A DNA stretch of 64,000 nucleotides. Source: Nitrospira sp. BO4 (lineage in GTDB: Bacteria; Nitrospirota; Nitrospiria; Nitrospirales; Nitrospiraceae). Position numbers and translations under genes: made by a program. Of this stretch, positions 1 through 19,944 are shown piece after piece. Within the stretch, counting starts at the first letter, position 1; each line of letters begins with the position of its first letter. The stretch lies in contig JAMPUU010000017.1 in the NCBI GenBank assembly GCA_030144965.1, positions 558,001 to 622,000 on the forward strand, given 5' to 3'. A model generated the notes under the pieces. That model saw only the letters and a list, made by a program, of their open reading frames with translations, searched no databases and was not told where the DNA came from.

Positions 1-98
1 GGAATGCACTAAAGGTATTGGTGGATCACACGTCATCGCTTCGGAGAAGCAGACTAGTCCCAGAGCAACAGTTCATGTCATGAAGACAGTTCCACTGC

Positions 99-929
99 TC
101 AGGCAGCTTTTTCTCGTTGGTGGGAATCCTTTTCCTGCCTAGACTGATCACCGGATATTTCTGTGTTATGACTGGCGAAGACATGTTGACGAAGTACAAG
201 CCATATGAATTTCGGAGCAGACACAAAGTTTCGCTGCCACATCCGGCGAGGCTCGAGGATAAAGCGGTATGCCCACTCAAGGCCAATATCGCAAATCCAT
301 TTCGGAGCTCGCGAGTACGTCCCGGCATAAAAGTCGAAGACCGCCCCGATCGAGCCGATCACGGGAACATTGAGCTGCCGTCGATTTGCCTCGACCCATT
401 TTTCCTGCTTTGGGGCAGTCATTCCAACCCAAAGGACATCCGGCTTTGCATCGTTGATCACTCTCACCATCCGTAGGTTTTCAACCTCACTCCATGTTCC
501 AAACGGTGGAGACAAGACACCACAGAGTGTCAAAGATGGGAAATCGTCAGCAAAACGTTTTGCAATAAGGTCCAGAACGCGCTGCGACGATCCACAGAAA
601 AACACTCGTCCACCCCCGGACTCCTGAAGTGCGGCTAGAACTCCATAAAAATAGTCGGTTCCCGTAATTCTGGGACCGACCTCAACGCCAGTCACACCCG
701 CCATCAGCGTCACACCTATGCCATCTGCCACTACGAAGTCTGCCGCCGTTAAGGCCGACCGAAAACTCTCATCGTACTGTGCGACCACCAGCGAATGTGG
801 ATTCGCGCAAGCAAACACAACCTGTGGTCTCTTTCGGTGAATTGCTCGGAGTGCTCCCTCTGCTCCCTCCAGAAGAGATCCTCTATCGATTGGGATGCTG
901 AGCAAACAGCCTACGTTTCTCAACGCCAT
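99..929 (-). CDS. WecG/TagA/CpsF family glycosyltransferase (GT26)
   Basis: Cytoplasmic or membrane-peripheral transferase that typically adds a second sugar (for example N-acetylmannosaminyl) to an undecaprenyl-PP-linked sugar during surface-glycan assembly. The 276-residue protein has the family hallmarks: NPHS near 43-46, ADG at 68-70, TGTD at 89-92, PKQE at 173-176, the GAVFDFYAG stretch at 195-203 and GLEWAYR at 216-222 followed by EP. Length is normal. The ATG at 929 has a GGAGA-type ribosome site upstream and lies 15 bases after the stop of the preceding GT4 gene, so the two are co-transcribed. It is the last gene of the polysaccharide cluster visible here. Exact acceptor and donor are unknown. 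Confidence 0.93.
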   Translation of the reverse strand: MALRNVGCLLSIPIDRGSLLEGAEGALRAIHRKRPQVVFACANPHSLVVAQYDESFRSALTAADFVVADGIGVTLMAGVTGVEVGPRITGTDYFYGVLAALQESGGGRVFFCGSSQRVLDLIAKRFADDFPSLTLCGVLSPPFGTWSEVENLRMVRVINDAKPDVLWVGMTAPKQEKWVEANRRQLNVPVIGSIGAVFDFYAGTYSRAPKWICDIGLEWAYRFILEPRRMWQRNFVSAPKFIWLVLRQHVFASHNTEISGDQSRQEKDSHQREKAA

Positions 930-944
930 CTCTACGTCTCCTGA

Positions 945-2174
945 TCACGTAGGATCATCCATTACGTCCTGATAGATCGCCATTAGACTCTCATAGTTTT
1001 TCGCATCTGAAAATCTTTCATCAAATCTTTGCCTGGCGATTCGGCGCATCGATACCCGTAGAGCTGGATCCTTCCATACCGCCATGACTTTCCCTATCAA
1101 ATCCTCAACATTGCCCGGTCTAAATTTCATCCCGGTTCGGCCATCTTCGACAATCTCATCAAGACTTCCTATGCGCGATGCAATGATGGGCGTCCCACAG
1201 GCATAGGCTTCTACGATCACCATGGGAAACCCTTCGTACCACTCCGAGGGAACGATCTGAAATGCTGCATTACTTACAACACCCGTGGCAATATCTCGCG
1301 CACAGTAACCCATAAACTCAACAGGTAAGTTCTCTCTTTCTACCACTTCCTCTAGCTCTTCTCTCAGAGGCCCCTCCCCAAGTATCTTGAGCGGAATAGT
1401 TTTCAAACCACGCCAAGCGGCTATCAAGGTGCGAACTCCCTTTTCCTCACTCAAACGACCAACATATACGACATATCCCCCGTCACCACTGCCAGGACTC
1501 GGAGCATCAATCATGCAGTTGGGCTTTATAACGATTCGTTCCTTTGGAAGCCCACCCTGGACCAAACGATTGGCTGCAAAGTGAGTCAGTGCTACATAGC
1601 GACTCACGAGTTTGTTGTACGATCCCTTCCGCCGATTGCGCTGTAACATCCAGACCACTGCCCCTGTCGCAAGAATAGAGTCCCTGTAGCAGCGGTGTTT
1701 CAGGGCCGGCAACAGGCTTGTACCAACACAATCCTCGCAAGGATGTCCCCCTCTTTGTAGAAGTCCTCCCGGACAGATCAGACGGAAGTTATGCAAGGTT
1801 TGAACGACGGGCACACCGTTATCACGGCAGGCGGCATAGGCACTGGGAGATATCAACGGAAACGTATTATGGAAATGTGCTATATCAGGTCTCACATTCT
1901 TCAAGATAATCGAGAGGTCACGATAGACTGTCGGAGACCACGAACAGGCCGTTGCAACTTTCAACCTCGATACCAGTGTAGTGTCATCTATTTCATCATT
2001 GAACCGCTCGAACGAAACCACTTCATGACCATGACGCGAGAGAATGGCCCGTTCATTGGCAAACACCGTATTTTCCCCGCTCGGCGCCGAAGAGCGGTAG
2101 AAATTATGAGAGAGAAGTATCTTCACAACCTTCACACCTGTGACATTCAGTTTGTTTGATGCTATTTCCCCCAC
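945..2174 (-). CDS. Glycosyltransferase family 4 protein
   Basis: GT-B fold retaining glycosyltransferase, expected to transfer a sugar from a nucleotide donor to the growing lipid-linked glycan on the cytoplasmic face. In the 409 residues an N-terminal acceptor domain (SGENT near 32-36, HNTF near 102-105) is followed by the C-terminal donor domain with GRLSEEKG at 239-246 and the E-x7-E motif EGFPMVIVE at 314-322. A CxxC pair sits near 146-149. The first dozen residues look like a non-conserved leader, so a start at the GTG for Val14 is possible. Preceded by a 158-base gap and followed 15 bases later by the WecG-type gene. Sugar specificity cannot be read from the sequence. Confidence 0.93.
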   Translation of the reverse strand: MGEIASNKLNVTGVKVVKILLSHNFYRSSAPSGENTVFANERAILSRHGHEVVSFERFNDEIDDTTLVSRLKVATACSWSPTVYRDLSIILKNVRPDIAHFHNTFPLISPSAYAACRDNGVPVVQTLHNFRLICPGGLLQRGGHPCEDCVGTSLLPALKHRCYRDSILATGAVVWMLQRNRRKGSYNKLVSRYVALTHFAANRLVQGGLPKERIVIKPNCMIDAPSPGSGDGGYVVYVGRLSEEKGVRTLIAAWRGLKTIPLKILGEGPLREELEEVVERENLPVEFMGYCARDIATGVVSNAAFQIVPSEWYEGFPMVIVEAYACGTPIIASRIGSLDEIVEDGRTGMKFRPGNVEDLIGKVMAVWKDPALRVSMRRIARQRFDERFSDAKNYESLMAIYQDVMDDPT

Positions 2175-2332
2175 ATCGTCCGGTCATCGGCGATCTACAA
2201 CCTCACGGCAAGCCTGACAAGAAAGGCAATTCACTTTTCCAACCATCCTCTCACGAGTGCGTAGTATGGACCAATTATTGCCTCTAACCAATCACCGGAG
2301 GTGCCGCAACTATTCGCAGAACGAAGCTGAAG

Positions 2333-3022
2333 TTATTTGTGACGACCGTCACCACCACCAGCGGGAAACAACTCATGCTCTTTCATTGCATGAATCCAAT
2401 AGGCCATGGAGAAATACTCCTTAAATGGAATGGGAAGCACGTTCCAAGCCCTATTCATAACCGCTCCAGCTTTCCCTCTGATTTTTGGCAGGTGGTAAAT
2501 GATCTGATTGACTTTAAATCCTGTAACTGACAGGAGCTTGCAGGCATTTCTAACTGTGAAAGCGTATAGGTGAGTTCCATTGAAGTAATCATGACGGACG
2601 ATCTGACGAACAAGACAATTCTCAATTGGCAAGCCCAGCATCAAGGTTCCAGCCGGCCGCAATACTCTATTAATCTCTCTCAATGCTCGAATCGGTGCAT
2701 CGATATGTTCCATCACATGAGAAAACAGCACTGCATCGTACAATGATGATTCTTGGCGTCCTAGTCCTTCGATTACGTCGCATTGCTCGACTCGCAGGCC
2801 TCTTCGCCGGGCCCGCTCGACTAACTCTGGAATCTGTTCAAGCCCCAGGGATTGGGACGACAGATGCTGAAGATAAAGCCCGTCGGAACATCCGATATCG
2901 AGAACCTTTTTATCTCTTAAATATGGGAGCACTAACGGCCATGAACCCATTTCACCAAATGCTCCGGCCATTCTTTCCAAGGCATACAATTTGTAACTGC
3001 TCTCCAAATTATCGGTTAACAT
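2333..3022 (-). CDS. Class I SAM-dependent methyltransferase
   Basis: Probable small-molecule or sugar methyltransferase of the UbiE/Methyltransf_11 type. The 229-residue protein has the SAM-binding motif I VLDIGCSDG at 40-48, an acidic residue at the end of strand 2 (VEQCD region), and the post-motif pattern LFSHVMEHID with an LRPAG turn, all usual for the family. It lies inside the polysaccharide cluster between the O-antigen polymerase-like gene and a GT4 gene, so it may methylate a sugar hydroxyl or cap a chain. This target is inferred from context only. Confidence 0.9.
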   Translation of the reverse strand: MLTDNLESSYKLYALERMAGAFGEMGSWPLVLPYLRDKKVLDIGCSDGLYLQHLSSQSLGLEQIPELVERARRRGLRVEQCDVIEGLGRQESSLYDAVLFSHVMEHIDAPIRALREINRVLRPAGTLMLGLPIENCLVRQIVRHDYFNGTHLYAFTVRNACKLLSVTGFKVNQIIYHLPKIRGKAGAVMNRAWNVLPIPFKEYFSMAYWIHAMKEHELFPAGGGDGRHK

Positions 3023-3105
3023 CCGCTCCTCCAGTGTGACAACTCAATCTCATGGCTCCTGCCACGGATATGATCTTCAACGGCAACGGTCCACTGTTGA
3101 TACGA

Positions 3106-4506
3106 TCACGATGTTCTTGGAGATGTTAATAATGGGTATTTCCTTTCAGGCTGGTGAACGGTCGTGTTCGCAAGCTCTGGCGCACAATGTTGTCCGAAAC
3201 ACTCGCTGCTCGGCACAAGCGCCCTAGCCATGGCAATAATAAGCATTAGCAATACCAGGTTAATGTTGTAGTCTTGAAATGTTGGCCCCGTCATACTCCT
3301 CGTCATGACAATGATATAGATAGAAGTGAGCTGCAGCCACACAAGCTTTTCTTGCGAAGAAGTCCAGACACGGGGCCTACTCAAATAAAGCTTGTAGGCC
3401 ACACCGCCCAGCGGAACGAGCATCACCAGTAATCCGACAAAGCCTAATCCTACGAGAATCTGCAAGTAGGTATTGTCTACTGAGAACACACTAAGTATTA
3501 TTCTCTGCGCATAGAACCCATGTCCAAGAAGAGGCGCCTGAAGCACAACCTCCCAAACTTCACTCCAATAGGAGGTCCTTCCAGTCATGCCATAGAATGC
3601 CTGTTCCGTTTGTCCTCGAAGGATATAAGAGGCCAGGATTTCCCTCGCACCGATTAACATCCCGAAAACAACACCGAGCCCTGTCAGGATGGCAGCAAGG
3701 AAATGTCTTCCCATGACAAGTATCACGCTACAGGCGATCAAGGCGGCAAAAATTGATGTTCGACTGTGCCCCAAGATAAGTACAATACCGCCAAGGCCAA
3801 GAGTGGCCATGAGTCCTATTTTCCTTTTTTCTGAGCCGGCGAGGACCTGACAAAGCGTAATTGAGACCAATAGAGCCGCGAACTGTGTTACCGAATTCGG
3901 ATAGATGGCGGGCATAATGCTTTGCGCTCCGGATACAATCGAGCCGCTCATCCCCTGTGATGTCGGTAATGCCAGTGACGGCGCCAGGATCACACTAAAA
4001 ATAACGCTCGCCGCAAAATAGAGCATCGCCATTCCCACAAGATCAATGCCCCACTGAATATCTTCTATAACAGTGAAGTACCTGGTCAGATAGATACCCA
4101 GTGTCACAAAGACGAGAACTTCGAATCCCTTCCAGAGGGAAACGATCGGGCTGATCGAATAGATAGAGGACAGCATCGCCAAGAGAGAATAGATGAGCAT
4201 CCAATGTGAGGCTTGCCCTCCTCGCGTGAGGCTCGATGGATTGGCCAGAATTCCGGCTATGGACGCCATGAAAATGAATCCAAGAACAATTGCACGAAGA
4301 GTCCGGCCAGTGTCCGGGGATGCGCTCGTAGCCCCGCCAGGTTCGCTACTACCTATAAAGAGACTGCCCATGGCCAGAAATACCAGGAATGCCGCCCATT
4401 TTCTCGGGAGCACTGCGTGCTTCGATCTTCGAACGATCCCACCGCTCGTCAGAACAGCCACGGTTCCAAGCGATCCCAGTACAATGAACAGATATGTCAA
4501 GTCCAT
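3106..4506 (-). CDS. O-antigen polymerase/ligase-like membrane protein (Wzy/WaaL family)
   Basis: Polytopic inner-membrane protein that probably polymerises or transfers lipid-linked oligosaccharide on the periplasmic side. I place the start at the ATG at 4506 (466 residues beginning MDLTYLF). The frame is open further upstream, but that extension is charged, lacks a membrane segment and overlaps the beta-helix gene. About 11 to 12 hydrophobic segments are visible. The Wzy_C signature includes HSRTS near 247-251, GRTSYW near 309-314, GHGF at 328-331 and DNTYLQ near 344-349. A polymerase role fits a Wzx/Wzy cluster with the flippase at 9829-11136, but polymerase and ligase cannot be told apart from sequence. 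Confidence 0.88.
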   Translation of the reverse strand: MDLTYLFIVLGSLGTVAVLTSGGIVRRSKHAVLPRKWAAFLVFLAMGSLFIGSSEPGGATSASPDTGRTLRAIVLGFIFMASIAGILANPSSLTRGGQASHWMLIYSLLAMLSSIYSISPIVSLWKGFEVLVFVTLGIYLTRYFTVIEDIQWGIDLVGMAMLYFAASVIFSVILAPSLALPTSQGMSGSIVSGAQSIMPAIYPNSVTQFAALLVSITLCQVLAGSEKRKIGLMATLGLGGIVLILGHSRTSIFAALIACSVILVMGRHFLAAILTGLGVVFGMLIGAREILASYILRGQTEQAFYGMTGRTSYWSEVWEVVLQAPLLGHGFYAQRIILSVFSVDNTYLQILVGLGFVGLLVMLVPLGGVAYKLYLSRPRVWTSSQEKLVWLQLTSIYIIVMTRSMTGPTFQDYNINLVLLMLIIAMARALVPSSECFGQHCAPELANTTVHQPERKYPLLTSPRTS

Positions 4507-4528
4507 GTAACTTCTCGTAACCCGACGC

Positions 4529-5920
4529 CTATCGAAGCACTCGTGGTCCCGTATCAGATTGGCATTGCGCCCGTTCAGGCTTCCGCAGAAGCAAACCGGT
4601 GGTATCCGGTTCTCGTGATAAATAGAGATCGGGGCCGTTTTGCGTTCCACACACAACGTTGTCGATTAACTGAATGCCTCTCATTTCATCTTCCTTGTTC
4701 CCCTTAAGATCAAGGCCGCCTGCTGCCCGATCGACATACCTGCCTGGATCAGAAAACGAGACGTAATTGTCCAGGATCTCATTTCCTTTGACGATGACTC
4801 CCCCGCTCCGTCGCACACTGAGTCCGCTGACATTGCCTTCTCCCGCCAAGACTGCCTTCTTGCCATTTCGATACACTCTGTTGCCAATGGCCGAAGACCG
4901 ATGCGATAGAATTCCGATTAAGATACCGCCATAGTAATTGTCATGAACGTCGTTTCCCTCTATCGTCGTCTCCGGAGCGGTGTATGCGATCAGGCCTGGA
5001 TCGCTATCGGGGCCGCCATTGTAGGCGACTTCATTGTCGATGATACTATTGCCAACATTCACGCCGACTTCGCCGATTGCGATACCCGATCTGTCCCCCT
5101 TTTGCCACGGAGGCCAATTTCCATTGTGGAGTGCCTTGCAACCTATGATCGTATTGTTCGCAGCGTTGTTTAAGAGGTACACACCTTCACGATTGTGCTC
5201 AAATACGCTCGCCTCAATGAAATTGTGATGGCCACCTCGAATTTGGAGTCCTCGCGCGTGCCAGCGAGCATGGATCCTTCTGATGATATTATTGCTTCCT
5301 TTATCGATTCCGATGCAGGCGCCCTGACCAAGCCAACACTCAAAATCTTCAACGATGACCCACGAGTTACTACCAAGCTGTATCCCTCCTCCGTTGGCCG
5401 CGCGCCAGACATCATGGTCACGTGGATCCCCCGTGGTCGGCCGGTAAAACAGCTCGCCGCTCTCCCAATACCAGTTACCATCAACGCATGCGCGTGTTCT
5501 TGCCGGTGTGAGGGGTCGCTGATCCTCCATCAATAGAATTGGCTTCGCGCTCGTCCGGATATGCCAGACTCTTTCGATATCGGAAGACCTCCAATTCGAT
5601 TCTTTGAGTCCGCCTGTAATGACCGGCAAACTATCTTGGTGCTCTCCTCTGAACACAATCGGATTTCCCTGTGTACCTGAATGCTTCACTGGCAAGTATT
5701 GGTAGGGCTCTCTGCCTTTTCTGATAATCACCAAATCGCCAGCCCGTGCGGTTTCGCCCGCATGCTCCAAAGTACGCCACGCCTGCTCCCAGCTGAGACC
5801 GTTGTTTGCGTCGTGGCCATCCTGTGAAACATGGTAGACGCCGGCATGCGCTATGCCCCCTTGCGTCCACACGAGAGTGACAAGAACTCCAATCAAGTTG
5901 CGTGTAATGAAGTCATGCAC
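4529..5920 (-). CDS. Secreted right-handed parallel beta-helix repeat protein
   Basis: Exported protein: residues 1-26 form a signal peptide (short charged start, hydrophobic core, GIAHA before the likely cut). The mature 437 residues open with YHVSQDGHDANNG and a WRTLEHA segment, typical of the start of pectate-lyase-like helices. They then run through NxI/NxV rung repeats (NNIIRRIHA, NTIIGCKALHN, TTIEGNDVHDN, NRVYRNG). Such folds occur in polysaccharide lyases, C5-epimerases and glycan-binding proteins. Its position between the fusion glycosyltransferase (28-base overlap with the start) and the polymerase-like gene suggests it trims, modifies or binds the exported polymer. No catalytic residues can be assigned. 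Confidence 0.85.
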   Translation of the reverse strand: MHDFITRNLIGVLVTLVWTQGGIAHAGVYHVSQDGHDANNGLSWEQAWRTLEHAGETARAGDLVIIRKGREPYQYLPVKHSGTQGNPIVFRGEHQDSLPVITGGLKESNWRSSDIERVWHIRTSAKPILLMEDQRPLTPARTRACVDGNWYWESGELFYRPTTGDPRDHDVWRAANGGGIQLGSNSWVIVEDFECWLGQGACIGIDKGSNNIIRRIHARWHARGLQIRGGHHNFIEASVFEHNREGVYLLNNAANNTIIGCKALHNGNWPPWQKGDRSGIAIGEVGVNVGNSIIDNEVAYNGGPDSDPGLIAYTAPETTIEGNDVHDNYYGGILIGILSHRSSAIGNRVYRNGKKAVLAGEGNVSGLSVRRSGGVIVKGNEILDNYVSFSDPGRYVDRAAGGLDLKGNKEDEMRGIQLIDNVVCGTQNGPDLYLSREPDTTGLLLRKPERAQCQSDTGPRVLR

Positions 5921-8900
5921 ATATCACCTCTGGAAGCCGAATCCTCACTCCACGGATCCACGCGATCGTAGAGAGCACTAACAACTGCGGCTTTCCTCGA
6001 CCACAAATAGTGCTCTTCCACATGTTTTCTGCCACACATACCCATCTTTTTCTGCAAGTCGGGGTCAGCAATCAGGCGGGAGACGGCATCACAAAGGCCG
6101 GCTACGGTGGTCGTCCAATCTTGAACAGGCACTTTGATGCCACAGGCATCAGTGACCATGGTCCCTGGACCCCCATAATCTAAACACACGACCGGAAGGC
6201 CCGAGGCCATGGCTTCCAACACCACCATCCCCGCTGCTTCCATGCTGGGAAACAAAAAGATGTGTGCTTCACTCATGAAACGGGATACCGCATGAAGTGG
6301 CTGCCAGGTCACGAACTTCACCCGCTCCTGCCAGCTGTATCCCTCAATCCTCCTGCGAAGGCGTAATTCTTCTGGACCGCTACCAAGCAAGGTCAACTTA
6401 GCATTCGGGTGCTTTGACGCCAGGAGCCCAAAGGCATCCAATGCGAGGTGTGCGCCCTTCATCGTAACGAGCCGTCCGACAAACAGGATCTCCGTCTGAG
6501 GTGAAGGCAACCGATCTGGCCATTTGTCTACCCGATCTACTCCTATCGCCGACTGGATTTGAAGCTTGTATTGTCCTAACCAGCGTAGAGGAAACGTCCT
6601 GGACAATTCATGATTGATCACAACAACCTGTGAAGCACGAAACAAGGAAATCCAATACAATGGTTCAAACGAACGCCCCAGCAACTGGATAGTGACACGT
6701 AGAAAGTCCTTACAGCGGACCTTCATATCCGGAAGCAGTTGCTGGGGAAATCGCGGGGTGTTGCCGATTGGTCCCCAAATGAATGGACCGGGCAAGAGTC
6801 CGAGGAAAGTCCCCATCCAGGCATTCACAAACGTGACATGATGGCTGAGATGAAAGCGCATGCGACGGTGCAATGAGTATCCTCTGACCAACGCAGCGAA
6901 TTGCCACAAATAGTAATATGTTCTGATCCCTCGCTGTTTCCGCTTCCAAAATGCCAAACAACGCGGCAAATCCACGTATTCGAAACGCAGGTTTGCGTTG
7001 GAGGTTGGTCTCTGCGCTGCTTCGATGGCGGACTTATTATTGCTTCGGGTGATCACCCACGTTTCATTCTCTCTTGAAATTTCTTGCACCCAATGCCAGC
7101 CGACTCCTGGTTCCGAGCCTTGATTAGGCTCACACGCATACGCCGCAACCAAAATCCGCCGCCTGTGTGACGGATGGCGCATGCGAATTAGGAGATCGCC
7201 CAGACAATCCTTCAAGTAGGAAGAAGCTTGGCCATGGCTCTCGAACTCACGAGTGAGGATCTCAACCACATATAGTGCCAGATAAGCTGGCAGCAGATTT
7301 TCAGCAATTCCCGTGCGGCGTATCACAGGCCCCAACACGGGACAGGCAGCCAGTCGCATGAGCTTATCGATCGCGGCTCCGGGAGAGAGCCCTTGAACCA
7401 ATCTGGAAGGCATCATGACACGGTGGAAAAGATCGTTTAGGATCGGAGCTCTGGGAGATGAATATTCCCAGTCATACACGTACAACTTCGATTCATTGAG
7501 CATCTGTGTATTCCACGGAGCATAGTCTCCGTGTGAAAGACCCACAACAATACCTGCCTGCTGCAAAACATTGGTTACCGACTCAACAGCATGTGTGACG
7601 GCAACAGCTAGGCGTGGATCTTCGTCACGAAACCTAGCGATCAAGGCTTCATACCCAAGACCGCGAAGATAACCTCTTACACTCAGCTCCTGACGAGTTT
7701 GTTCTAGCATCGCCACCAAGAAACGTGCGTCATTATTATCTGGGATAATGGATCGAGGCTTTCCTGGAAGCGCAGGAGCGGATAGGTACAGAAAATACCG
7801 ACCACCGATCGCGGAGAATTGTCGAACCTTTGGCACGACAATTCCGTCTAGCTCAAGATTAGAGACATTCTCCAGGCCATCCCGTTCTCCTTCGAGAAGA
7901 GCCTTGACCTGAGGTCCATCACCGATCTTGACATAGGCAACGTTGATTCCAGCTCGGCTTACCTGTCCGGTAAGTTTCTGATGCTTCCCGGCCGCACCGA
8001 CAGAAAAACTGGTGACGAGTTGACGCTCCGAAAGTGTGTCACGGATGACAGAGTGATACCTAACAAGTTCGGAGATCCTCCCTTCACGGGTCCTACTCTT
8101 TAAAATACATAGTGAGACCCAATTTGGGAAAATGCATAGAATCCATTTGACAAGTCGTCCTCTCCTAGACGACGGCTGATAAAGACGTAACGCATTCTTC
8201 ACGCTATCCTGCACACTGATCCAAACTTTGACGGGGCCGTACAGTGGAAACGGAGCCCACAACGCTTTCCCGCCATCGCTTGGAGCAACGGAACGGTCTT
8301 TACCTCGACCAACTTCAATTCGCCTCGCGATTTCACTCACGACTGAGTGAATTCCACCGTCAGTTTCAACCACACATGAATGAGGCCAATTCCGTAGCTC
8401 TTCCTCAAGTAGCGATAATTGCTGAGCTATACAATGGAGCGGCAGTTCTGGTTTTCGCATGTAGACCACTTGCGGTTCGGCTTTCAGCAATACGACCAAA
8501 TCTGGAGATGGGATCCAAGCGCGAGCCGACCGCAACAACCAACGAGACACATCGAACCCATACCGCTCAGGATGAACGACGACATCCATGTAGTACCGTT
8601 CGCCAATAATCAACTGCCCTCGAAGTTTTCTCGGGAAAATCTTTACCCAGTAGCCTACGATAAAATCGATCCAATAGTAGACGAATCTCGCCAGAGAAAT
8701 TATGCCTGTATACTTTGATGAATGAGGAGGACTACTCATGCCTTGATTGCTGTTCTCCGAGCGGGCGCCTATGATTGGACGACCAAGCTTGGGCAACAAC
8801 CCCGGGCGCCAGTGAAATCGCCAAGCTTCTGGGAATCGATCCTGGAGCTGTGCGATGAGGGCATCCGCTACAGTAGACTTTCCACTGCCATCAGGGCCAA

Positions 8901-8949
8901 CAAGAACGACAAACATTCCTGATCCCACGCTCGAACCGGCTCTAATCAA
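5893..8949 (-). CDS. Three-domain fusion: thymidylate kinase-like P-loop, APH-like kinase and GT4 glycosyltransferase
   Basis: The 1018-residue protein joins three enzymes. Residues 12-215 are a thymidylate-kinase-like P-loop domain with Walker A GPDGSGKST at 18-26. Residues about 300-570 form an aminoglycoside-phosphotransferase-like kinase with an intact catalytic loop HGDYAPWN at 473-480 and the metal-binding DWE at 493-495. Residues about 595-1010 form a GT4 domain opening with RILVAAYACEPN, with FVGRL in the donor half and the E-x7-E motif EAAGMVVLE at 904-912. The start is the GTG/ATG region at 8949, overlapping the upstream gene by 8 bases. The kinases may phosphorylate a sugar or lipid acceptor before glycosylation; this is inference. 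I see no frameshift, so the fusion appears genuine. Confidence 0.88.
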   Translation of the reverse strand: MIRAGSSVGSGMFVVLVGPDGSGKSTVADALIAQLQDRFPEAWRFHWRPGLLPKLGRPIIGARSENSNQGMSSPPHSSKYTGIISLARFVYYWIDFIVGYWVKIFPRKLRGQLIIGERYYMDVVVHPERYGFDVSRWLLRSARAWIPSPDLVVLLKAEPQVVYMRKPELPLHCIAQQLSLLEEELRNWPHSCVVETDGGIHSVVSEIARRIEVGRGKDRSVAPSDGGKALWAPFPLYGPVKVWISVQDSVKNALRLYQPSSRRGRLVKWILCIFPNWVSLCILKSRTREGRISELVRYHSVIRDTLSERQLVTSFSVGAAGKHQKLTGQVSRAGINVAYVKIGDGPQVKALLEGERDGLENVSNLELDGIVVPKVRQFSAIGGRYFLYLSAPALPGKPRSIIPDNNDARFLVAMLEQTRQELSVRGYLRGLGYEALIARFRDEDPRLAVAVTHAVESVTNVLQQAGIVVGLSHGDYAPWNTQMLNESKLYVYDWEYSSPRAPILNDLFHRVMMPSRLVQGLSPGAAIDKLMRLAACPVLGPVIRRTGIAENLLPAYLALYVVEILTREFESHGQASSYLKDCLGDLLIRMRHPSHRRRILVAAYACEPNQGSEPGVGWHWVQEISRENETWVITRSNNKSAIEAAQRPTSNANLRFEYVDLPRCLAFWKRKQRGIRTYYYLWQFAALVRGYSLHRRMRFHLSHHVTFVNAWMGTFLGLLPGPFIWGPIGNTPRFPQQLLPDMKVRCKDFLRVTIQLLGRSFEPLYWISLFRASQVVVINHELSRTFPLRWLGQYKLQIQSAIGVDRVDKWPDRLPSPQTEILFVGRLVTMKGAHLALDAFGLLASKHPNAKLTLLGSGPEELRLRRRIEGYSWQERVKFVTWQPLHAVSRFMSEAHIFLFPSMEAAGMVVLEAMASGLPVVCLDYGGPGTMVTDACGIKVPVQDWTTTVAGLCDAVSRLIADPDLQKKMGMCGRKHVEEHYLWSRKAAVVSALYDRVDPWSEDSASRGDMCMTSLHAT

Positions 8950-9832
8950 GGTTGAGCCTTCTATCTCGGAAATAGCTCACGATTTCCTTTTCGCATGTTG
9001 AAACATTGACATTCCCGGACAGATTCAAGTCGGCCAATAAAGCACTGGGAACCGCACATATTTCCGACATCAATCGAGACCGCAGACACCCGGCGAGCAT
9101 TCCGTGTCGTCTAATACCCCGTGATTGAGAAAGATATATCAGCAGAGCACTCTCATTAAGGATCGAGGGACTGGCTCCCCCAATCATCAAGCCGGTAGGT
9201 CGCCAAAAACGCCGCAAATAATGAACGGCGCAGCTTACTGCACCGCACAGAGAACTCAGCGGCTGCTTCATGATCAAGTCTAGAAGCCACTTCTTTCTCT
9301 GACGGCAGTTCATAACCGAAAAGCCGTGCCTTTCCATGGATGTTCGATACTTCTCTGCCCCACTGTAGGCATTCTTGATCGCCCACGCGATCTCCACTGC
9401 AATCTTCTCCGGAAAAACCTTAAACCCACTGTTCGAATCCACTGTGCTATGCGCTAACAATCGATCGACCTCCAGCAAGGGCACACCTTTATAGTGCAGC
9501 TTCCAGGTTACATCCAATCGCTTCATCATCCTCACACCGTCCCCAAGGAATAGGCGAGTTCCACCGTAAGCGCTCGCCGCATAAATCAGCATCCCTGACT
9601 TTCGAATCCTTTCGAAACACCTCTCCCTATCGCGTTCCGAGAGCAGGAGATCAATATCCCCCTGGAGTGGGATAGCTATGGATTCCAAGCCTCGCGCTAC
9701 GGCGTAATCAAGGCCGGAAAATAATTCGAGCAAGACTCTCGTCCATTCTCTGTTCTCTGTCGAAATACATGAATCACCGACATTTGGCGTCATAGAAACG
9801 TGCCCATAAATACACGTCTTGCCATTCATCAC
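8942..9832 (-). CDS. Nucleotidyltransferase-fold-like protein of glycan cluster
   Basis: 296 residues, soluble. The motif GDIDLLL at 58-64, preceded by a hydrophobic strand, resembles the hG-x-D-x-D metal-binding motif of the nucleotidyltransferase fold, and the following region contains KRLDVTW, which could supply the third acidic residue. The C-terminal half is helical and unassigned. It overlaps the flippase gene by 4 bases (ATGA) and the kinase/GT4 fusion by 8 bases, so the three are translationally coupled. Proteins of this kind are often found beside thymidylate-kinase-like proteins in polysaccharide loci, which supports a shared reaction. Substrate unknown; family assignment rests mainly on the one motif. 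Confidence 0.72.
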   Translation of the reverse strand: MMNGKTCIYGHVSMTPNVGDSCISTENREWTRVLLELFSGLDYAVARGLESIAIPLQGDIDLLLSERDRERCFERIRKSGMLIYAASAYGGTRLFLGDGVRMMKRLDVTWKLHYKGVPLLEVDRLLAHSTVDSNSGFKVFPEKIAVEIAWAIKNAYSGAEKYRTSMERHGFSVMNCRQRKKWLLDLIMKQPLSSLCGAVSCAVHYLRRFWRPTGLMIGGASPSILNESALLIYLSQSRGIRRHGMLAGCLRSRLMSEICAVPSALLADLNLSGNVNVSTCEKEIVSYFRDRRLNLD

Positions 9833-11136
9833 ACTTCAGGGACAAGAACGCGATTAAGCACCGCCGACTTCGATAATGCCCCACGGATTACATAATAGAC
9901 ATAGACCCCTGTCCACGTAACTTGTACGGCAACAAATCCTAAGGCAGCTCCAGCAACTCCAAACTGACTGATCAAGGGGTAGGCTATCAGCGATGACACG
10001 ACAGCCGCCACAAACTGCGCGGAAAACCCGACCTGCGGCAATTCGGCCGTCCTAAATGCAGCTACCAAGACGGTGTTCACAGCACGAAAGATATAGCTGA
10101 AGCCGATGATCTCAATCAGATAGGCAAATCCAGAATAGTTTTCGCCGTAAGTCATGCGAAGGAGGGGTTCAGCCAGTACCGCAACCACTCCCCAGAGCGC
10201 AAGAACGGCCGCAATAAGCCGAAACCCAACTGACTTCAACCAATTCACCCAAGCTTCATAGTTCCTATTCAATAAGCGATCGCGAGCGACAGGAATCGCA
10301 AATCCCATGACACCGGACAACAGAACATTAATGAGGTTGAGCACCGCGAGCGCAGCATTCAAAGCGCCTGCCGAGCGGGCATCGATAATGAGTGCGGTCA
10401 GATATAGATACAGTTGAGAAGAGACGGCATATGCAAGTGCTTCAACGAGAATCCACTTGCCGTAAGCCCAATTCTCGAACGACCGAGATAATAAATCGAG
10501 CCTACCAAACGGAAGAGAACGATATGGAAACAGAAATGCCCCGGCAGCGAGGGCGCTTGGAATGGCTATTCCAAGGAACAATGTATTTGTGGTCAGCCTA
10601 TCTGTGAGCGCGAGAATCCCTAAGAGTAGAAGGCGACCGCAATGAGTCCAAAGATCCAAAGACAACAATGAAACAACCGATAGCTTTGTCGCCAGTATCG
10701 TGCGTGCAAGCTCTTGGAGCTGAACAAAAAAGACACAAAGTGGAAAGCTGACGCCTAATGAACTTGACCCGAACGTGCCGGATACAAGCATTCCGGCTGA
10801 CAGCAGAGATGTGAGCCCACCTAACGCAAGCTGAAGCCAGCATTGCGTCTCGAAATACCCTGGGTCTTGACTCCCGTTCTTTGCAACCCCGAACACTCTG
10901 ACAGGACCACTAATAAGCGCGTTCTGTATCCCTAAGAACACCAGTAGAGTTACGTAAAAGAGCGAGAAAATCCCGAACTCATCAAGCGTCAACGTCCTTG
11001 CCGCTACAACACTCGTTAAGAAGTTTGAAAGAGAAACAACACCTTGATCGAGGATCGAGACTACAACCCCTTTAGACACGGTGGAGGTGCGAGAACTCTT
11101 CGTGCTGACTTCAGAAGCAACTTGAGAGGCGATCAT
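9829..11136 (-). CDS. Wzx-like oligosaccharide flippase (MOP superfamily)
   Basis: Inner-membrane protein of 435 residues with about 12 to 14 hydrophobic segments and few charged residues between them, as expected for a polysaccharide transporter that flips undecaprenyl-PP-linked repeat units to the periplasm. The first membrane segment follows a 25-residue Ser/Thr-rich N-terminus (VVSILDQGVVSLSNFL). The ATG at 11136 has a GGAAG ribosome site about 9 bases upstream. It is the first gene of the left polysaccharide operon and is preceded by a 537-base non-coding stretch that probably holds the promoter. Next gene overlaps by 4 bases. Confidence 0.88.
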   Translation of the reverse strand: MIASQVASEVSTKSSRTSTVSKGVVVSILDQGVVSLSNFLTSVVAARTLTLDEFGIFSLFYVTLLVFLGIQNALISGPVRVFGVAKNGSQDPGYFETQCWLQLALGGLTSLLSAGMLVSGTFGSSSLGVSFPLCVFFVQLQELARTILATKLSVVSLLSLDLWTHCGRLLLLGILALTDRLTTNTLFLGIAIPSALAAGAFLFPYRSLPFGRLDLLSRSFENWAYGKWILVEALAYAVSSQLYLYLTALIIDARSAGALNAALAVLNLINVLLSGVMGFAIPVARDRLLNRNYEAWVNWLKSVGFRLIAAVLALWGVVAVLAEPLLRMTYGENYSGFAYLIEIIGFSYIFRAVNTVLVAAFRTAELPQVGFSAQFVAAVVSSLIAYPLISQFGVAGAALGFVAVQVTWTGVYVYYVIRGALSKSAVLNRVLVPEV

Positions 11137-11673
11137 TACATTCTTCCATTTCCAGTGGAACTCCTCGATTTCTATAGACGTTGACGTCAGATAGGGTACC
11201 GCTGAACACTAACCGTCTAGCAGCGACATCCAATCGTTCTACGATCGCTTTCTTGCTATGACGTATCTGCTCCGACAATCTGTCCCTCATGGACAAAACT
11301 CAAATGGCCTGACGGACATCGCAAACACCCATGCGAATCAACGCTGACCTGGGAACTACGGGTGTGATTAGGAAGGCTTTTGTGATGGTATTGACTGAAC
11401 CTACATGTGGCAACTTAAAACGCTTTTACAACAGCAAGACTCGGTCCATGTAGCGAACTCCAAATGACGTGACGAATCAGTAGGTTGGGAAAATGATCTG
11501 GGATGTTGCAGTGTGTTAACGGAGGTAAGAGGATACAGAAACGTTCGAATTGGTGCAGACAAAAACGCGGGAGCTATTCAGCGCTGTGCTTCCAGGATCG
11601 ATTGACGGACCACCAGATTAGACCTAACCTGACTGCCTATAAATTAAAGGCTCTACAGAACACGAACCACATA
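11137..11673. other. Non-coding gap upstream of the wzx-like operon
   Basis: This 537-base stretch lies between the start of the flippase gene and the remnant of an epimerase gene. It looks AT-richer than the flanking gmd/fcl genes, has stops in all frames on the minus strand, and the plus-strand open frame here has no recognisable product. An imperfect palindrome-like stretch AAAACGCTTTT lies near 11417-11428. It most likely contains the promoter of the minus-strand polysaccharide operon and decayed sequence; I cannot name a specific promoter. Confidence 0.5.
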
Positions 11674-11835
11674 TCACTCATTACGCAACACTCGCTCCAA
11701 GCACTCGACGATCCGCTCGGCTGCGTTGCCGTCCCATTTAGAAGGAATCGCTCCTGTCTTCCACTGTCCGGCCATCAATCGAGCAGAGTCAGACATGGCA
11801 GGCCCACCACCGGCATTTCTTCGACTTAAACTCAG
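11674..11835 (-). pseudogene. Remnant of a UDP-N-acetylglucosamine 2-epimerase gene (C-terminal end only)
   Basis: Reading the minus strand from 11835 to the TGA at 11674 gives a 53-codon open stretch with no start codon of its own in a sensible place. Its end contains the segment IPSKWDGNAAERIVE, which closely resembles the characteristic C-terminus of non-hydrolysing UDP-GlcNAc 2-epimerases (WecB type, IP-x-x-WDG-x-AAERI). A stop codon precedes it at 11836-11838, and fcl ends only 30 bases further upstream, so at least 300 codons are missing. I infer a deletion that removed the body of a wecB-like gene formerly placed after fcl. Confidence 0.65.
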
Positions 11836-11864
11836 TTAGAACGGAGCAGAACGGCCGGAAGTAG

Positions 11865-12836
11865 CTAGAAGTGCACTTCGCGGATCGGCTCGCGGTTGGT
11901 TCGAAACCATTGGACGGTTTTCTTCAGCCCGTCGCGCAAGCTATGTCGCGCTTGAAATCCGAAGAGCTGTTTGGCCCGGCTCACGTCAAGACACCGCCTC
12001 GGCTGGCCGTTCGGTTTGGCGGTATCCCACTGAATCTCACCGGAGAATCCCACCTCGGCGGCAATCATCCTAGCCAGATCGCGAATGGCAACCTCTTCTC
12101 CGGTTCCCAAATTGATGGGCAGATCGCCCTGGTACTGTTCCGCTGCGAGAAGGATCCCCTCAGCAGCGTCCTCGACGTACAAGAATTCCCGCGTGGGGGA
12201 TCCATCTCCCCAGAGGGTGATCGACGCGTGTCCCGCATCTTTTGCCGTCGCACATTTCCGTACGAGCGCCGGAATGACGTGAGAGGTCTCCAGATCGAAG
12301 TTGTCACGCGGTCCATACAGATTGACGGGAAACAGCACGATCGAATTAAACCCATACTGTTGGCGATAGGCCTGCGACTGGACCAGCATCATCTTCTTTG
12401 CCAGCCCATACGGGGCATTGGTTTCCTCAGGATAGCCGGTCCACATATCGTCTTCTTTGAATGGGATCGGAGCGAACTTGGGATAGGCACAAATCGTCCC
12501 GAGTGCGACAAACTTCTTGAGCCCCCGTTGACGGCCTACCTCGATCAGCTGCGTGCCCATCATCAGATTATCGTAAAAGAACCGTCCCGGATTGGCTTGG
12601 TTTGCGCCGATTCCGCCCACACGAGCCGCCAGATGGATCACCATATCGGGCTTCGCGTCGCTGTACAGTTGCCGTACGGCATCCATCTGCACCAGATCGT
12701 AGTCCTTGCTACGCGGGACAATGACTTGCCGACAGCCTTTTACTCGCAACTGCTCGACGACGAACGAACCGAGGAACCCGGCACCACCCGTCACGACAAC
12801 ACACTGATCTTCCCAAAATGAGGTTTTATTCGTCAG
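11865..12836 (-). CDS. fcl: GDP-L-fucose synthase
   Basis: Converts GDP-4-keto-6-deoxy-mannose to GDP-L-fucose (epimerase and NADPH reductase activities of one short-chain dehydrogenase). Visible features: the Rossmann motif [19 protein letters not shown], the catalytic-site pair GTICAYP and YGLAK, and the family end [14 protein letters not shown]. The first ordinary start is GTG at 12794, but this would remove the first beta strand (QCVVVTGG). I therefore extend to a CTG at 12836, which has AGGGGG six bases upstream; the start is uncertain. It directly follows gmd in the same reading frame, separated by a TAG. The product feeds fucose into the neighbouring polysaccharide pathway. Confidence 0.93.
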
Positions 12837-12848
12837 AACACACCCCCT

Positions 12849-13856
12849 CTAGGTTCGTTTTCTCGTCCCATCCAACTTTTCTTTTTCCGCCGCCAAATCC
12901 GCATCGACCATCATGGCGATTAACTCTTCGAACCGTACCTTGGGCTGCCACCCGAGTTGTTTCTTGGCTTTACTCGCATCCCCGATAAGCAGATCGACTT
13001 CGGTCGGTCGATAATACTTCTCATCGATCTTCACATGTTTCTTCCAGTCCAATTGGAGCCGGTCAAAGGCCAGCTCCAACATTTCCTTGACCGTATGGGT
13101 TTCACCCGTTGCGATGACATAGTCTTCAGGCTGTGGAGCTTGGAGCATCATCCACATGGCTTCGACATAGTCGCCGGCGTACCCCCAGTCGCGCTTCGCA
13201 TCGAGGTTTCCCAGGAACAAATCGTGTTGGGTCCCAAGCTTGATGCGCGCCGCCGCTTTGGTGATTTTCCTCGTGACGAAGGTTTCACCCCGTCGCGGCG
13301 ATTCATGATTGAACAGAATTCCATTGCATGCAAACAGATCGTACGCCTCCCGATAGTTCACTGTAATCCAATAAGAATAGACCTTCGCCGCCCCATACGG
13401 GCTCCTGGGATAGAAGGGAGTCGTTTCCTTCTGCGGGACCTCCAGCACCTTGCCGAACATTTCGCTGGACGACGCTTGATAAAACTTCGGTTTGAGCCCC
13501 GATTCGCGGATGGCCTCGAGAAGCCGAATCGTGCCGAGCCCCGTGATCTCTCCGGTGTACTCGGGAATATCGAAGCTCACACGGACGTGACTCTGAGCTC
13601 CGAGATTATAGATTTCATCGGGTTGGACGGTGCGCAAGATCCGATTCAGCGAACTGGCGTCGTTCAGGTCTCCGTAAATCAAGTGGAGGCGCCGGTGAGG
13701 TACATGCGGATCTTCATAAATCGGATCGATGCGGCCTGTGTTGAAGGAGCTGGAGCGGCGGATGATGCCGTACACTTCGTAGTCTCTGGCGAGCAGAAAT
13801 TCCGACAGATAGGATCCATCTTGTCCCGTAATTCCGGTGATCAGTGCTTTCTTCAC
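12849..13856 (-). CDS. gmd: GDP-mannose 4,6-dehydratase
   Basis: NADP-dependent short-chain dehydratase making GDP-4-keto-6-deoxy-D-mannose, the precursor of GDP-L-fucose. I choose the GTG at 13856 (335 residues, starting [17 protein letters not shown]), which has AGGGGGA about ten bases upstream; the frame continues upstream without a conserved segment. Motifs: [10 protein letters not shown] nucleotide-binding loop, SSSEMFGK with the active-site Ser/Glu region, [10 protein letters not shown] containing the YxxxK pair, and the [17 protein letters not shown] segment typical of Gmd. Length is as expected. Together with the next gene it forms the complete two-step GDP-fucose pathway. Confidence 0.96.
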
Positions 13857-14014
13857 GCGCGAAGTCCCCCTTAAGCTTGGAATGAGGAGCGGATTATTGC
13901 GTGCTTCCATCCATTTGTCTACTCTTCATGCGAAAGGACCGTTGGTAAAAGATTCTTGCGGCCAACGGCAGTGTCCGGGTACGATGCAAGACTAGAAGGG
14001 AGAGAGGCAATACC

Positions 14015-14935
14015 TTGGCCGCATTACCTCCGCAACACGCGCGTCGCGTCGGAATGTTTCTCTGTATGGTTGTGTGCGGTCTGCTCATCGCGCACTCAAT
14101 CAATGCCTTCGTTGCCGAGGCACTATATGTGATCCCCGAGCATCCGTCTGGCTCCGACAGCGGTGGATTTCCGGGCTCTCCGGTGCTGGCATCCTATTCA
14201 CCGACACAGGCGGTGGACGATGTGCAGACCAGCGGTCTGTTCCTTCTCCCTCCTACACCTCAGAACGGACAGACGAATGCGACGAATTCTGATAGACGCG
14301 GTCTCTCCGGAACTCCGGTTCGCGCGTCCCTCGGGTTGGCGGCAAGGATTCGTTTGATCGGTATCGTGTTCGGCGATCAGCGCGGCATCTTTGCGATCGT
14401 TGAAGAACTGTCGTCCAAGCAACAATCGTTATATCGCCTCCATGATTCAATTCTCGATCTGGGAGAAGTGAGCGAGATTCGTCGAAACGGACTTCTGGTC
14501 CGTCAAGGCAATGTCGAGGAGTTGTTGGAACTGGCGGTAACCGACAACCCGATCGCACCGGCCGGTTCTTCCGGCACGGTTCCTACTGCCGCCCAGGCAC
14601 CGACACCCGGCGCTCCTCTGCGAAAAATCGTCGACCGCCGTGAAGTGGAACAAGCCATGAATGATCTGCCGAAACTCTTGTCGCAGGCCAGAGCCGCCCC
14701 ATTCATGGTGAACGGGACTATAAACGGATTTCGCCTGGACTACGTCGCTCCGGCCAGCTTCTATGAAAAAATCGGGGTTCAGGCGGGGGACGTGCTGCAA
14801 CGGGTCAATGGCGTCGATATCCGTGATCCCAGCACCATGCTGAGCTTACTGCAGCAACTCAAGAATGAGCAGATCGTCAAGCTCGACGTGGTTCGAAATA
14901 ATCAACGCTCCACGATCACGTACGAGCTTCGCTGA
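14015..14935 (+). CDS. gspC: Type II secretion system inner-membrane protein GspC (PDZ)
   Basis: Links the inner-membrane platform to the outer-membrane secretin. The 306-residue protein has one membrane anchor near 14-33, a proline-rich linker, the HR domain (AARIRLIGIVFGDQRGIFAIVEE near 110-130, followed by an HDSILDLGEVSEI stretch) and a C-terminal PDZ domain containing FRLDYVAPASFYEKIGV and GDVLQRVNGVDI. The start is a TTG at 14015 with AGAGAGG seven bases upstream. It is the first gene of the plus-strand secretion operon, divergent from gmd across 158 bases. Unusually, gspD does not follow it. Confidence 0.9.
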   Translation: MAALPPQHARRVGMFLCMVVCGLLIAHSINAFVAEALYVIPEHPSGSDSGGFPGSPVLASYSPTQAVDDVQTSGLFLLPPTPQNGQTNATNSDRRGLSGTPVRASLGLAARIRLIGIVFGDQRGIFAIVEELSSKQQSLYRLHDSILDLGEVSEIRRNGLLVRQGNVEELLELAVTDNPIAPAGSSGTVPTAAQAPTPGAPLRKIVDRREVEQAMNDLPKLLSQARAAPFMVNGTINGFRLDYVAPASFYEKIGVQAGDVLQRVNGVDIRDPSTMLSLLQQLKNEQIVKLDVVRNNQRSTITYELR

Positions 14936-15049
14936 GACCATCGTTCCTGCTTCGTGTGTGTATTGTCCTTGACCCTCGCTCCTAACGGTTCTGGGCTACG
15001 GCCACTTTCAGCCCGCATTCTCAGTGATCGACAACTCCACAAGGCAGCG

Positions 15050-15066
15050 CTTAACTTTACGTTAAG
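15050..15066. repeat. Short perfect inverted repeat upstream of gspE
   Basis: CTTAAC-TTTAC-GTTAAG, two 6-base arms with a 5-base spacer, lies about 75 bases before the gspE start in the 203-base gap between gspC and gspE. It could be an operator half-site pair or a weak hairpin; there is no T-run to make it a terminator. Chance occurrence is possible. Confidence 0.3.
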
Positions 15067-15138
15067 AATGCACGGTGTCCTTGCCAGGCCGTTGGAAGGG
15101 AGAGTATCTTTACCAATTGAGGGAAAGGCCAGGCGAAA

Positions 15139-16890: not shown

Positions 16891-16988
16891 ATGCCGCACC
16901 GAGTCTCCGACCCCCTCCCTCGGCCATTTCCAGATTGGACTGTCGGACCGCCTTCAGTGGCGTGTGACGCCTCCGGAGCCTGCTGACC

Positions 16989-18227: not shown

Positions 18228-18286
18228 GATGGGCGATCTGCAACACGGTAGAGGGAGAGCTGGAACGAGACAAAGGGGGACTGACG

Positions 18287-18823: not shown

Positions 18824-18828
18824 GCTCA

Positions 18829-19497: not shown

Positions 19498-19506
19498 CAC
19501 GTCGCA

Positions 19507-19944
19507 ATGGGACGGAATGCACACCACCCCAATTTCGATGAACGCGGTTTCACGTTGCTCGAAGTGCTGCTGGCAATCGCCTTATTGGCGATCGCACTTC
19601 CGATTCTCCTCGGCCTCAGAAATTTCGACCTGGATCTTCAGGGTCGAGCGACCGAACTGACTGCCGCGACCCTCTTGGCCCAAGAGAAATTAGTGGAAAC
19701 TGAACTCTCTGGACAATATTCCATAGGAGAGACTGTCGGGGATTTTCCGAACCTCCCGCTCGGAGCCCAGACCACGACCCAAGCGGTCCCCAGGGCCGTC
19801 GGTTACAAATGGAAGCGTACCATCGCGCCGACCCCGCTGGAGTTGATTCGAGAGATTCGCATCAAGGTGTTTTGGCCGCGTGGCGAGCTTGAAGAAAGTG
19901 TGGAGGTGAGTACCTATGTCTTTGCCGGGCGTCTCACCTTCTAA
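19507..19944 (+). CDS. gspI: Type II secretion minor pseudopilin GspI
   Basis: Minor pseudopilin of the GspH-I-J-K tip complex. 145 residues with leader MGRNAHHPNFDERG, cleavage before FTLLEVL, then the helix LAIALLAIALPILLG and the pattern AATLLAQEKLVE, which is the typical GspI signature (A-x-x-x-A-x-x-K). Followed by a short beta domain. Its 3' end overlaps gspJ by 29 bases, indicating coupled translation. Confidence 0.9.
   Translation: MGRNAHHPNFDERGFTLLEVLLAIALLAIALPILLGLRNFDLDLQGRATELTAATLLAQEKLVETELSGQYSIGETVGDFPNLPLGAQTTTQAVPRAVGYKWKRTIAPTPLELIREIRIKVFWPRGELEESVEVSTYVFAGRLTF

Follow-up and report, generated by a model that had tools for sequence, protein, structure and literature searches.

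This report concerns two adjoining genes of Nitrospira sp. BO4, found in a stretch of 64,000 nucleotides (GenBank assembly GCA_030144965.1, contig JAMPUU010000017.1, positions 558,001 to 622,000; hereafter the window). One encodes a Pol-beta-type nucleotidyltransferase (NTase), and the other is predicted from its reading frame to encode a single chain of 1018 residues that joins a thymidylate-kinase-like P-loop kinase domain (TMPK), an APH-like kinase domain and a GT4 glycosyltransferase domain. We propose, with a probability of roughly one half, that together they represent, in this genome, a recurring module of four enzymes whose task is to prepare or decorate a unit from which a Wzx/Wzy-type exopolysaccharide is built. 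The proposal rests on sequence or fold evidence for each domain, conserved catalytic residues, the co-occurrence of the four parts, the several ways in which they are partitioned among polypeptides, correlated trees, and an exopolysaccharide context. The quartet recurs in several distant bacterial groups, while the exact TMPK-APH-GT4 triple fusion is unique to the window in a sample of 58 loci.

Co-occurrence and fusion of the four domains

The survey comprised 58 loci with a TMPK match of at least 40 bits, a partner being counted if it lay within 6.5 kb on the same strand and scored at least 35 bits (APH), 12 bits (NTase) or 150 bits (GT4); these limits, and a stricter TMPK cut of 140 bits, were chosen after the scores had been seen. 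Locus L016, near-identical to L013, was excluded from the survey and the trees, short re-fetches (L001-L011, L033-L063, L081-L117, L138) were not counted as loci, and the weak match in genome G074 was left out. On this basis, an NTase accompanies the kinase in 44 of the 58 loci, an APH in 40 and a GT4 in 33, with all four present in 30; at 140 bits or more, the figures for the 47 remaining loci are 41, 37, 33 and 30, respectively. Thirty-seven loci fetched after profile building, none of them a profile row, include 27 with an NTase, 26 with an APH and 22 with a GT4.

Fusions among the four are frequent and varied. NTase and TMPK share one polypeptide in 40 of the 58 loci, either as NTase-TMPK (34) or as APH-NTase-TMPK (six, in Hymenobacter and five genomes of the Flavobacteriales phylum), rarer forms being APH-GT4 (two, L012 and L064), TMPK-APH (one, L125) and the TMPK-APH-GT4 of the window; four separate genes occur in L020, L120 and L128. 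With a slash between polypeptides, the partitions of the quartet are NTase / TMPK-APH-GT4 (window only), NTase-TMPK / APH-GT4, NTase-TMPK / APH / GT4, TMPK-APH / GT4, APH-NTase-TMPK / GT4, and four single genes. The triple fusion, for which the original prediction knew of no described pathway, is indeed unusual, being found in one locus of 58, but is better seen as one partition of a quartet that recurs in exopolysaccharide loci. Two proteins, judged by their sequences, provide further fusion links to membrane steps of exopolysaccharide assembly, with NTase-TMPK joined in L022:1-1932 to a bacterial sugar transferase (PF02397) and in L019:7179-10031 to a region that resembles a flippase (E 5e-50, with 29% identity to the L013 protein).

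The TMPK tree groups the window with L012 and L064, and APH and GT4 were therefore probably already fused in the common ancestor of the three; relative to these two loci, the window would differ in having NTase split from TMPK and TMPK joined to APH. In L064 the APH-GT4 unit is followed, within a single protein of 1401 residues (2636-6841, minus strand), by a GH123-N-like region, which scores 28.2 bits to PF22680 (cut-off 27). GH123-N-like proteins are also encoded in L012 (2737-4566, below cut-off) and by the replaced cassette (L086:11391-13196), and in the window a beta-helix protein lies beside the GT4.

Genome-wide presence and tree comparisons point the same way. Among 395 genomes of the window's phylum searched at E<=1e-10, 21 have a TMPK match and 11 an APH match, with nine shared (hypergeometric P 2.6e-11, kinship uncorrected). 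The nine best TMPK genomes are also the nine best APH genomes (G000, G048, G055, G191, G198, G234, G291, G311 and G342); both profiles contain rows from the first three, and G342 carries its two genes on different contigs. Across the 30 four-domain loci, distances in the four domain trees correlate (r 0.42-0.69; for each pair 0 of 1000 permutations were as high), with host kinship uncontrolled and the best-scoring GT4 nearby taken as the GT4 row, a choice that favours agreement. That the parts act together, as originally suggested, is thus supported by their co-occurrence, their fusion in several combinations and their correlated trees.

Domains of the fusion protein

The TMPK domain has the dTMP (thymidylate) kinase fold with a P-loop and a DR motif. 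Pfam Thymidylate_kin scores 24.4 bits on the whole protein (cut-off 27) and 30.0 bits on the domain alone; an AlphaFold2 (AF2) model has a predicted local distance difference test (pLDDT) score above 90 across most of the domain, and its top structural match is dTMP kinase 2plr (Z 19.6, root-mean-square deviation (rmsd) 3.4, 187 residues), the top PDB sequence matches of the TMPK profile likewise being dTMP kinases. In the family alignment of the loci, the P-loop Lys and R165 are present in 58 of 58, while the [DE]R motif begins with D in 53 and E in five and retains its Arg in 56. The window's domain is unlikely to be the housekeeping thymidylate kinase, because a strong gene for that enzyme lies elsewhere in the genome (C14:151135, 169.9 bits). 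Distinct from the latter are two tandem TMPK-family stretches of the same genome (C17:541546-542833, or L088:1547-2834; 80 and 70 bits to PF02223) that lie on the left side of the exopolysaccharide locus.

The APH-like domain has no Pfam APH match in the window protein, while nine of 12 aligned family members match PF01636 at E<=0.01. It carries the HxDxxxxN and DxE motifs and the ATP-binding Lys of the APH/choline kinase superfamily, and over 40 members the catalytic residues are conserved in 37 (K), 39 (H), 39 (D), 37 (N), 39 (D) and 39 (E). Members share an N-terminal region of roughly 100 residues ahead of the kinase core. The top PDB sequence match of the profile is choline kinase 4r77 (E 1.2e-6), with aminoglycoside phosphotransferase 3ham at E 2.7e-4; the polysaccharide context gives no support to a role in aminoglycoside resistance. 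A structural search with the TMPK-APH half, in whose model residues 219-404, including the APH N-lobe, have pLDDT below 50, returned TMPK matches only among the matches listed (the best 50 of each).

The GT4 domain matches PF00534 well above its cut-off (E 1.3e-31; 109.9 against 26.4 bits), and E904 and E912 form its EX7E pair. Over 33 family members, the first of these positions is E in 18, D in 10 and H in five, and the second is E in 26, so that this partner is less uniform in its catalytic residues than both kinases and the NTase. The near-invariance of the catalytic residues in TMPK, APH and NTase suggests that these three are probably active, and the original description of both kinase motifs as intact is supported.

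The frame encoding these domains is intact over its 1018 residues, with zero internal stops, in agreement with the original prediction of one fused protein. In its own genome it is the only full-length match to that protein, the other seven matches covering the GT4 part alone. Its TTG start overlaps the stop of the NTase gene by 8 nt, which had led to the proposal of translational coupling; an in-frame ATG at codon 12 (33 nt past the TTG), directly ahead of the P-loop, could serve as well, in which case the gene would begin 25 nt past the NTase stop. Coupling is accordingly plausible only, as the overlap depends on the TTG start.

The neighbouring nucleotidyltransferase

The gene upstream, noted earlier for its GDIDLLL motif, encodes a protein with the core fold of Pol-beta-type NTases, a DxD pair and a third Asp on a later strand, these residues being conserved in 43, 43 and 42 of 44 members. 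The gene starts with GTG and shares 4 nt with the end of the flippase gene. The protein model, with a mean pLDDT of 62, is good over about residues 20-155 and poor past them; structurally it matches MenT1 (Z 11.8, rmsd 2.3, 111 residues), LnuA (Z 10.4) and ANT(2'')-Ia (Z 8.7), behind which ranks FKRP (6kal; Z 7.3, rmsd 4.3, 130 residues). The window protein misses the gathering score of PF14907 NTP_transf_5 (14.8 against 31.2 bits), and one of 12 family members matches this model at E<=0.01.

In fused relatives, the linker LRRFWRPTG runs directly into the kinase P-loop; in the window it is followed instead by a tail of 82 residues, for which no significant homology was found and of which the own genome and 28 relatives hold no second copy. 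In pairwise comparisons of the last 96 NTase residues, the score was reached in 300 shuffles five times for L012, three times for L064, 12 times for L027, 117 times for L013 and 201 times for the window's own kinase; the match to L064 covers the linker only, and those to L012 and L027 extend past it. The TMPK profile finds nothing significant in the tail (-1.3 bits). A search for a lost frame or the decayed remains of a kinase where NTase and TMPK adjoin gave no support for either, the TMPK profile matching only the real kinase frame among three frames of 8801-9400, although the tail may still be a kinase remnant. An inserted or repeated element was rejected: no second copy was found in these genomes, and the repeats seen, an inverted pair of 12 nt (8963-8974 / 9059-9070) and a direct repeat of 8 nt, are unconvincing as element ends.

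Genomic setting

The module sits in an exchangeable, serotype-like cassette occupying roughly positions 1-11861 of the window (Table 1), as a comparison with the same-species genome G305 indicates. The flanks are near-identical in the two genomes, at 98.7% over 16.0 kb to one side and 96.5% over 4.3 kb to the opposite one, but between them G305 has another set of polysaccharide genes, including those for a flippase, a glycosyltransferase, a methyltransferase and a UDP-GlcNAc 2-epimerase. The sole stretch still alike between the two cassettes is 417 bp near the right end (about 11368-11784, 73%), and neither TMPK nor APH finds a match in G305 at E<=1e-10. The GDP-fucose genes (11865-13910, minus strand) are also present in that genome and hence lie outside the exchanged cassette.

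Just left of the window lie the exosortase gene xrtD (547 bits, cut-off 400) and WecA-, PrsT-, export-, chain-length- and tyrosine-kinase-like genes, the latter with NCBIfam matches that are strong yet below the cut-offs of those models. Flippase, polymerase, initiating transferase, export and chain-length genes thus cluster as in a Wzx/Wzy exopolysaccharide locus, the flippase being assigned through a sub-threshold Pfam match and similarity to another flippase-like protein, and several of the other genes through NCBIfam matches below equivalog cut-offs. Adjoining the locus on its other side, at 14015-20569 (plus strand), are genes whose translations have the look of type II secretion or pseudopilin proteins. 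The Pfam name GT4-conflict raised an anti-phage or conflict system as a candidate, which was rejected: PADLOC, run on five proteins, gave only weak P-loop-sized matches of at most 17.6 bits.

Table 1. Features of the fusion locus and its surroundings, in window coordinates.
Feature	Position	Strand	Details
TMPK-APH-GT4 fusion protein	5893-8949	-	1018 aa; TTG start; alternative ATG 8914-8916
TMPK domain	8296-8937	-	residues 5-218; GPDGSGKST 18-26, ERYYMD 117-122, RKPE 165-168
APH-like kinase domain	7201-8253	-	residues 233-583; K341, E355, HGDYAPWN 473-480, D493, E495
GT4 glycosyltransferase domain	5938-7161	-	residues 597-1004; N-terminal motif YACEPNQGSEPGVGW; E904, E912
Pol-beta-type NTase	8942-9832	-	296 aa; GDIDLLL; catalytic D59, D61, D107
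C-terminal tail of NTase	8945-9190	-	82 residues; follows linker LRRFWRPTG
Exchangeable cassette	1-11861		extends about 110 bp left of the window; swapped for another polysaccharide cassette in G305
WecG/TagA/CpsF glycosyltransferase	99-929	-	
Second GT4 glycosyltransferase	945-2174	-	
S-adenosylmethionine (SAM)-dependent methyltransferase	2333-3022	-	
O-antigen ligase / Wzy-type polymerase	3106-4656	-	PF04932
Right-handed beta-helix protein	4529-5920	-	longest frame overlaps end of fusion gene by 28 nt
Flippase-like protein	9829-11136	-	PF01943 below cut-off; 22% identity, E 7e-11, to L013 flippase-like protein
GDP-L-fucose synthase-like gene	11865-12794	-	307 bits, NCBIfam cut-off 500
GDP-mannose 4,6-dehydratase	12849-13910	-	544 bits, cut-off 415

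Distribution of relatives

The pattern was first seen in two of 59 related genomes, G048 (NTase-TMPK, then APH-GT4) and G055 (NTase-TMPK, APH, GT4). A scan of genome contigs gave at least 13 loci, bearing, by their submitters' labels, the names Deltaproteobacteria (two), Prosthecobacter, Nitrospiraceae, Sulfurimonas, Acidobacteria, Vampirovibrio, Microthrix, Akkermansiaceae, Flavobacteriales, Acidimicrobiales, an unnamed bacterium and a bin labelled Nanoarchaeota. At E<=1e-25, the TMPK family occurs in 12 of 288 genomes in the phylum of the Prosthecobacter metagenome-assembled genome (MAG) and in nine of 345 in that of the Flavobacteriales MAG. Nine plasmid records have a TMPK match; in all six examined (Leisingera, Agrobacterium, Hymenobacter, Chelatococcus, Streptomyces and Legionella, a sample that leaves out three further Leisingera records) the relatives lie among polysaccharide genes, and their current annotation is 'hypothetical protein', 'phosphotransferase' or 'AAA family ATPase'. 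No near-identical plasmid copies of the locus were found, and none of 16 pattern matches on viral contigs was a relative.

L076:6499-9509 and L077:6827-9806 (minus strand) hold distant relatives in the order glycosyltransferase, APH-like (48 and 41 bits) and TMPK-like (73 and 65 bits), in which no NTase was found. The TMPK-like kinases of L068, L071, L072 and L075 lie near proteins starting with VVIIGIDG-type sequences, which we take to resemble the alkaline-phosphatase superfamily and which may be a hint of phosphate chemistry.

Proposed function

The module would act on the cytoplasmic side, ahead of flipping. First, a hydroxyl group on the acceptor, either a small molecule or one linked to lipid, would be phosphorylated by the APH-like kinase; NTase and TMPK-like kinase, most often a single protein, would next act on the acceptor or its phosphate, by phosphoryl transfer onto phosphate and by transfer of a nucleoside monophosphate (NMP) from a nucleoside triphosphate; and the GT4 would add a sugar to the modified unit, or transfer that unit. 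Fusion and gene adjacency may serve to hold a scarce or labile phosphorylated intermediate between active sites. The product could be a phosphorylated sugar unit, as the original prediction offered by way of example. A more far-reaching version, which we regard as less likely than not, is that of a previously undescribed glycan-activation pathway, in which two kinases and an NTase would in sequence build, on a single sugar-coat precursor, a pyrophosphate-, nucleotide-linked or phosphodiester unit for a dedicated GT4, the active sites having been repeatedly re-partitioned while the set was kept.

Several observations weigh against a common module of this kind. At least one partner is absent from 28 of the 58 loci (NTase from 14, APH from 18, GT4 from 25), and a relaxed scan recovered only some of them: in L119 and L021 an APH on the opposite strand, and in L125, L025 and L031 faint NTases. 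An APH match at E<=1e-8 exists anywhere in only nine of the 17 genomes or records behind other TMPK loci. Fragments of L014 and L031 were among the rows of the APH profile by which they were then scored (44 and 58 bits); seven of the NTases score below 40 bits (17-39) and were called partly by their position before the kinase; and the first catalytic Glu of the GT4 is kept in only those 18 of 33 members. No other genome of the genus among those searched carries the module, G067 having a weak TMPK relative. The profile matches give no evidence of the substrate, the best in PDB being a choline kinase for APH and dTMP kinases for TMPK. The weak-scoring TMPK loci probably include other kinase families.

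In the literature searched, which reached few subscription papers, no description of the four-domain combination was found; the original prediction, too, knew of no described pathway with this exact fusion. In the portions available, PMC12419801 uses aminoglycoside phosphotransferase once, as a figure abbreviation, with no occurrence of nucleotidyltransferase or thymidylate kinase; PMC13343947 places an aminoglycoside phosphotransferase next to an Akkermansia capsule locus; PMC4275268 lists thymidylate kinase and sugar nucleotidyltransferase on separate table rows; and the thymidylate kinase of PMC7432712 is that of a phage.

The quartet lies in loci that decide cell-surface chemistry. If its enzymes act in sequence, the phosphate or nucleotide chemistry of exopolysaccharides would go beyond what current annotation predicts, and the contrasting partitions, NTase / TMPK-APH-GT4 and APH-NTase-TMPK / GT4, would be a natural test of which active sites need physical coupling.

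Alternative explanations

The alternative that survives best, although unlikely, is phosphodiester decoration of the Lic/fukutin type. LicA makes a phospho-alcohol with choline, and LicD and FKRP transfer a phospho-alcohol from a cytidine diphosphate (CDP)-alcohol to a glycan; by analogy, APH would make the phospho-alcohol, the NTase-fold protein would transfer it from a CDP-alcohol, and TMPK would recycle the cytidine monophosphate, the fusion of an NMP kinase to an NMP-releasing transferase being a sensible arrangement. The choline kinase match of the APH profile and the FKRP match of the NTase model are weak hints of such chemistry. The former is faint and is accompanied by aminoglycoside phosphotransferases; the latter is surpassed by MenT1, LnuA and ANT(2'')-Ia (Z 11.8 to 8.4), and a Z under 8 may, as the structural search tool notes, reflect merely a common arrangement. 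Ten genes of the window were scanned, and none was recognisable as a cytidylyltransferase of the LicC type.

A second and rather improbable explanation is nucleotide housekeeping, with TMPK as an NMP kinase that recycles nucleotides from the glycosyl- and phosphoglycosyltransferases of the cluster and APH as an unrelated sugar kinase. Sugar transferases and WecA-type enzymes release nucleoside diphosphates or uridine monophosphate, the TMPK fold match scores Z 19.6, and in L022 NTase-TMPK is joined to a bacterial sugar transferase. Against this stands the strong, separate thymidylate kinase of the genome. Moreover, dTMP kinases bind their nucleotide partly in the segment between P-loop and DR motif, whereas the five HMMER alignments examined of the TMPK profile with dTMP kinases join positions up to 42 to those from 99 or 147 on and leave this segment (positions 43 to at least 98) unaligned. 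Housekeeping would also leave the link to NTase and APH unexplained.

Thirdly, the 1018-residue frame might be an artefact or a very recent read-through, the true order being NTase, TMPK and APH-GT4, with a stop lost by sequencing error. In the closest relatives, L012 and L064, TMPK does end ahead of an APH-GT4 encoded by a gene of its own, the exact fusion occurs in a single locus, and this locus was found in one assembly only, the same-species G305 being without it. The original prediction named orthologues encoded by separate genes, with a stop missing here, as its refutation, and this is borne out in part, because the other 57 loci have the parts in separate genes or fused in other ways. 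The TMPK/APH joint, however, keeps the reading frame, 14 residues separate the profile borders (218 and 233), and both component fusions exist elsewhere, APH-GT4 in L012 and L064 and TMPK-APH in L125, which sits on another branch of the kinase tree. A genuine fusion is for these reasons more likely than a lost stop, which we rate a slim chance; the original observation is confirmed, and its interpretation partly supported.

Highly improbable, finally, is a chain-end role in which the kinases phosphorylate the growing chain to stop its growth rather than act on each unit, in the manner of WbdD, a kinase-methyltransferase that does so: a methyltransferase gene is indeed nearby (2333-3022), but the cluster has its own Wzx/Wzy-type and chain-length-determinant-like genes, and what the module adjoins or is fused to is a GT4, a sugar transferase of the initiating type or a flippase-like region.

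Comparison with known systems

The four-enzyme module favoured here can be set beside several known systems. By its exosortase XrtD, scoring above cut-off, the neighbourhood of the window resembles the exopolysaccharide loci associated with PEP-CTERM and exosortase (Haft et al., 2006; PMC1569441), a paper whose main text does not use the term nucleotidyltransferase and which, in the parts examined, makes no mention of the module. With thymidylate kinases (PF02223; 2plr, 5x7j and others) the window's TMPK has in common the predicted fold, the P-loop and the [DE]R motif; unlike them, its family has its own RKxE and Asp122 and is fused to NTase or APH in most loci. The APH-like domain has the catalytic HxDxxxxN, DxE, Lys and Glu of the APH/choline kinase superfamily (PF01636, PF01633) but differs in lacking a Pfam match, in its family's N-terminal 100 or so residues and in its linkage to polysaccharide genes. 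The NTase has the core fold and three catalytic Asp of Pol-beta-type enzymes such as ANT(2'')-Ia, LnuA and MenT1 (cf. PF14907), whereas its family is mostly kinase-fused and found in a polysaccharide context. The Lic phosphocholine pathway and fukutin/FKRP likewise pair an APH-superfamily kinase with an NTase-fold protein on a surface glycan; relative to these, the window has a weaker NTase structural match, none of its ten scanned genes recognisable as a cytidylyltransferase, and, in addition to that pair, a TMPK-like kinase and a GT4.

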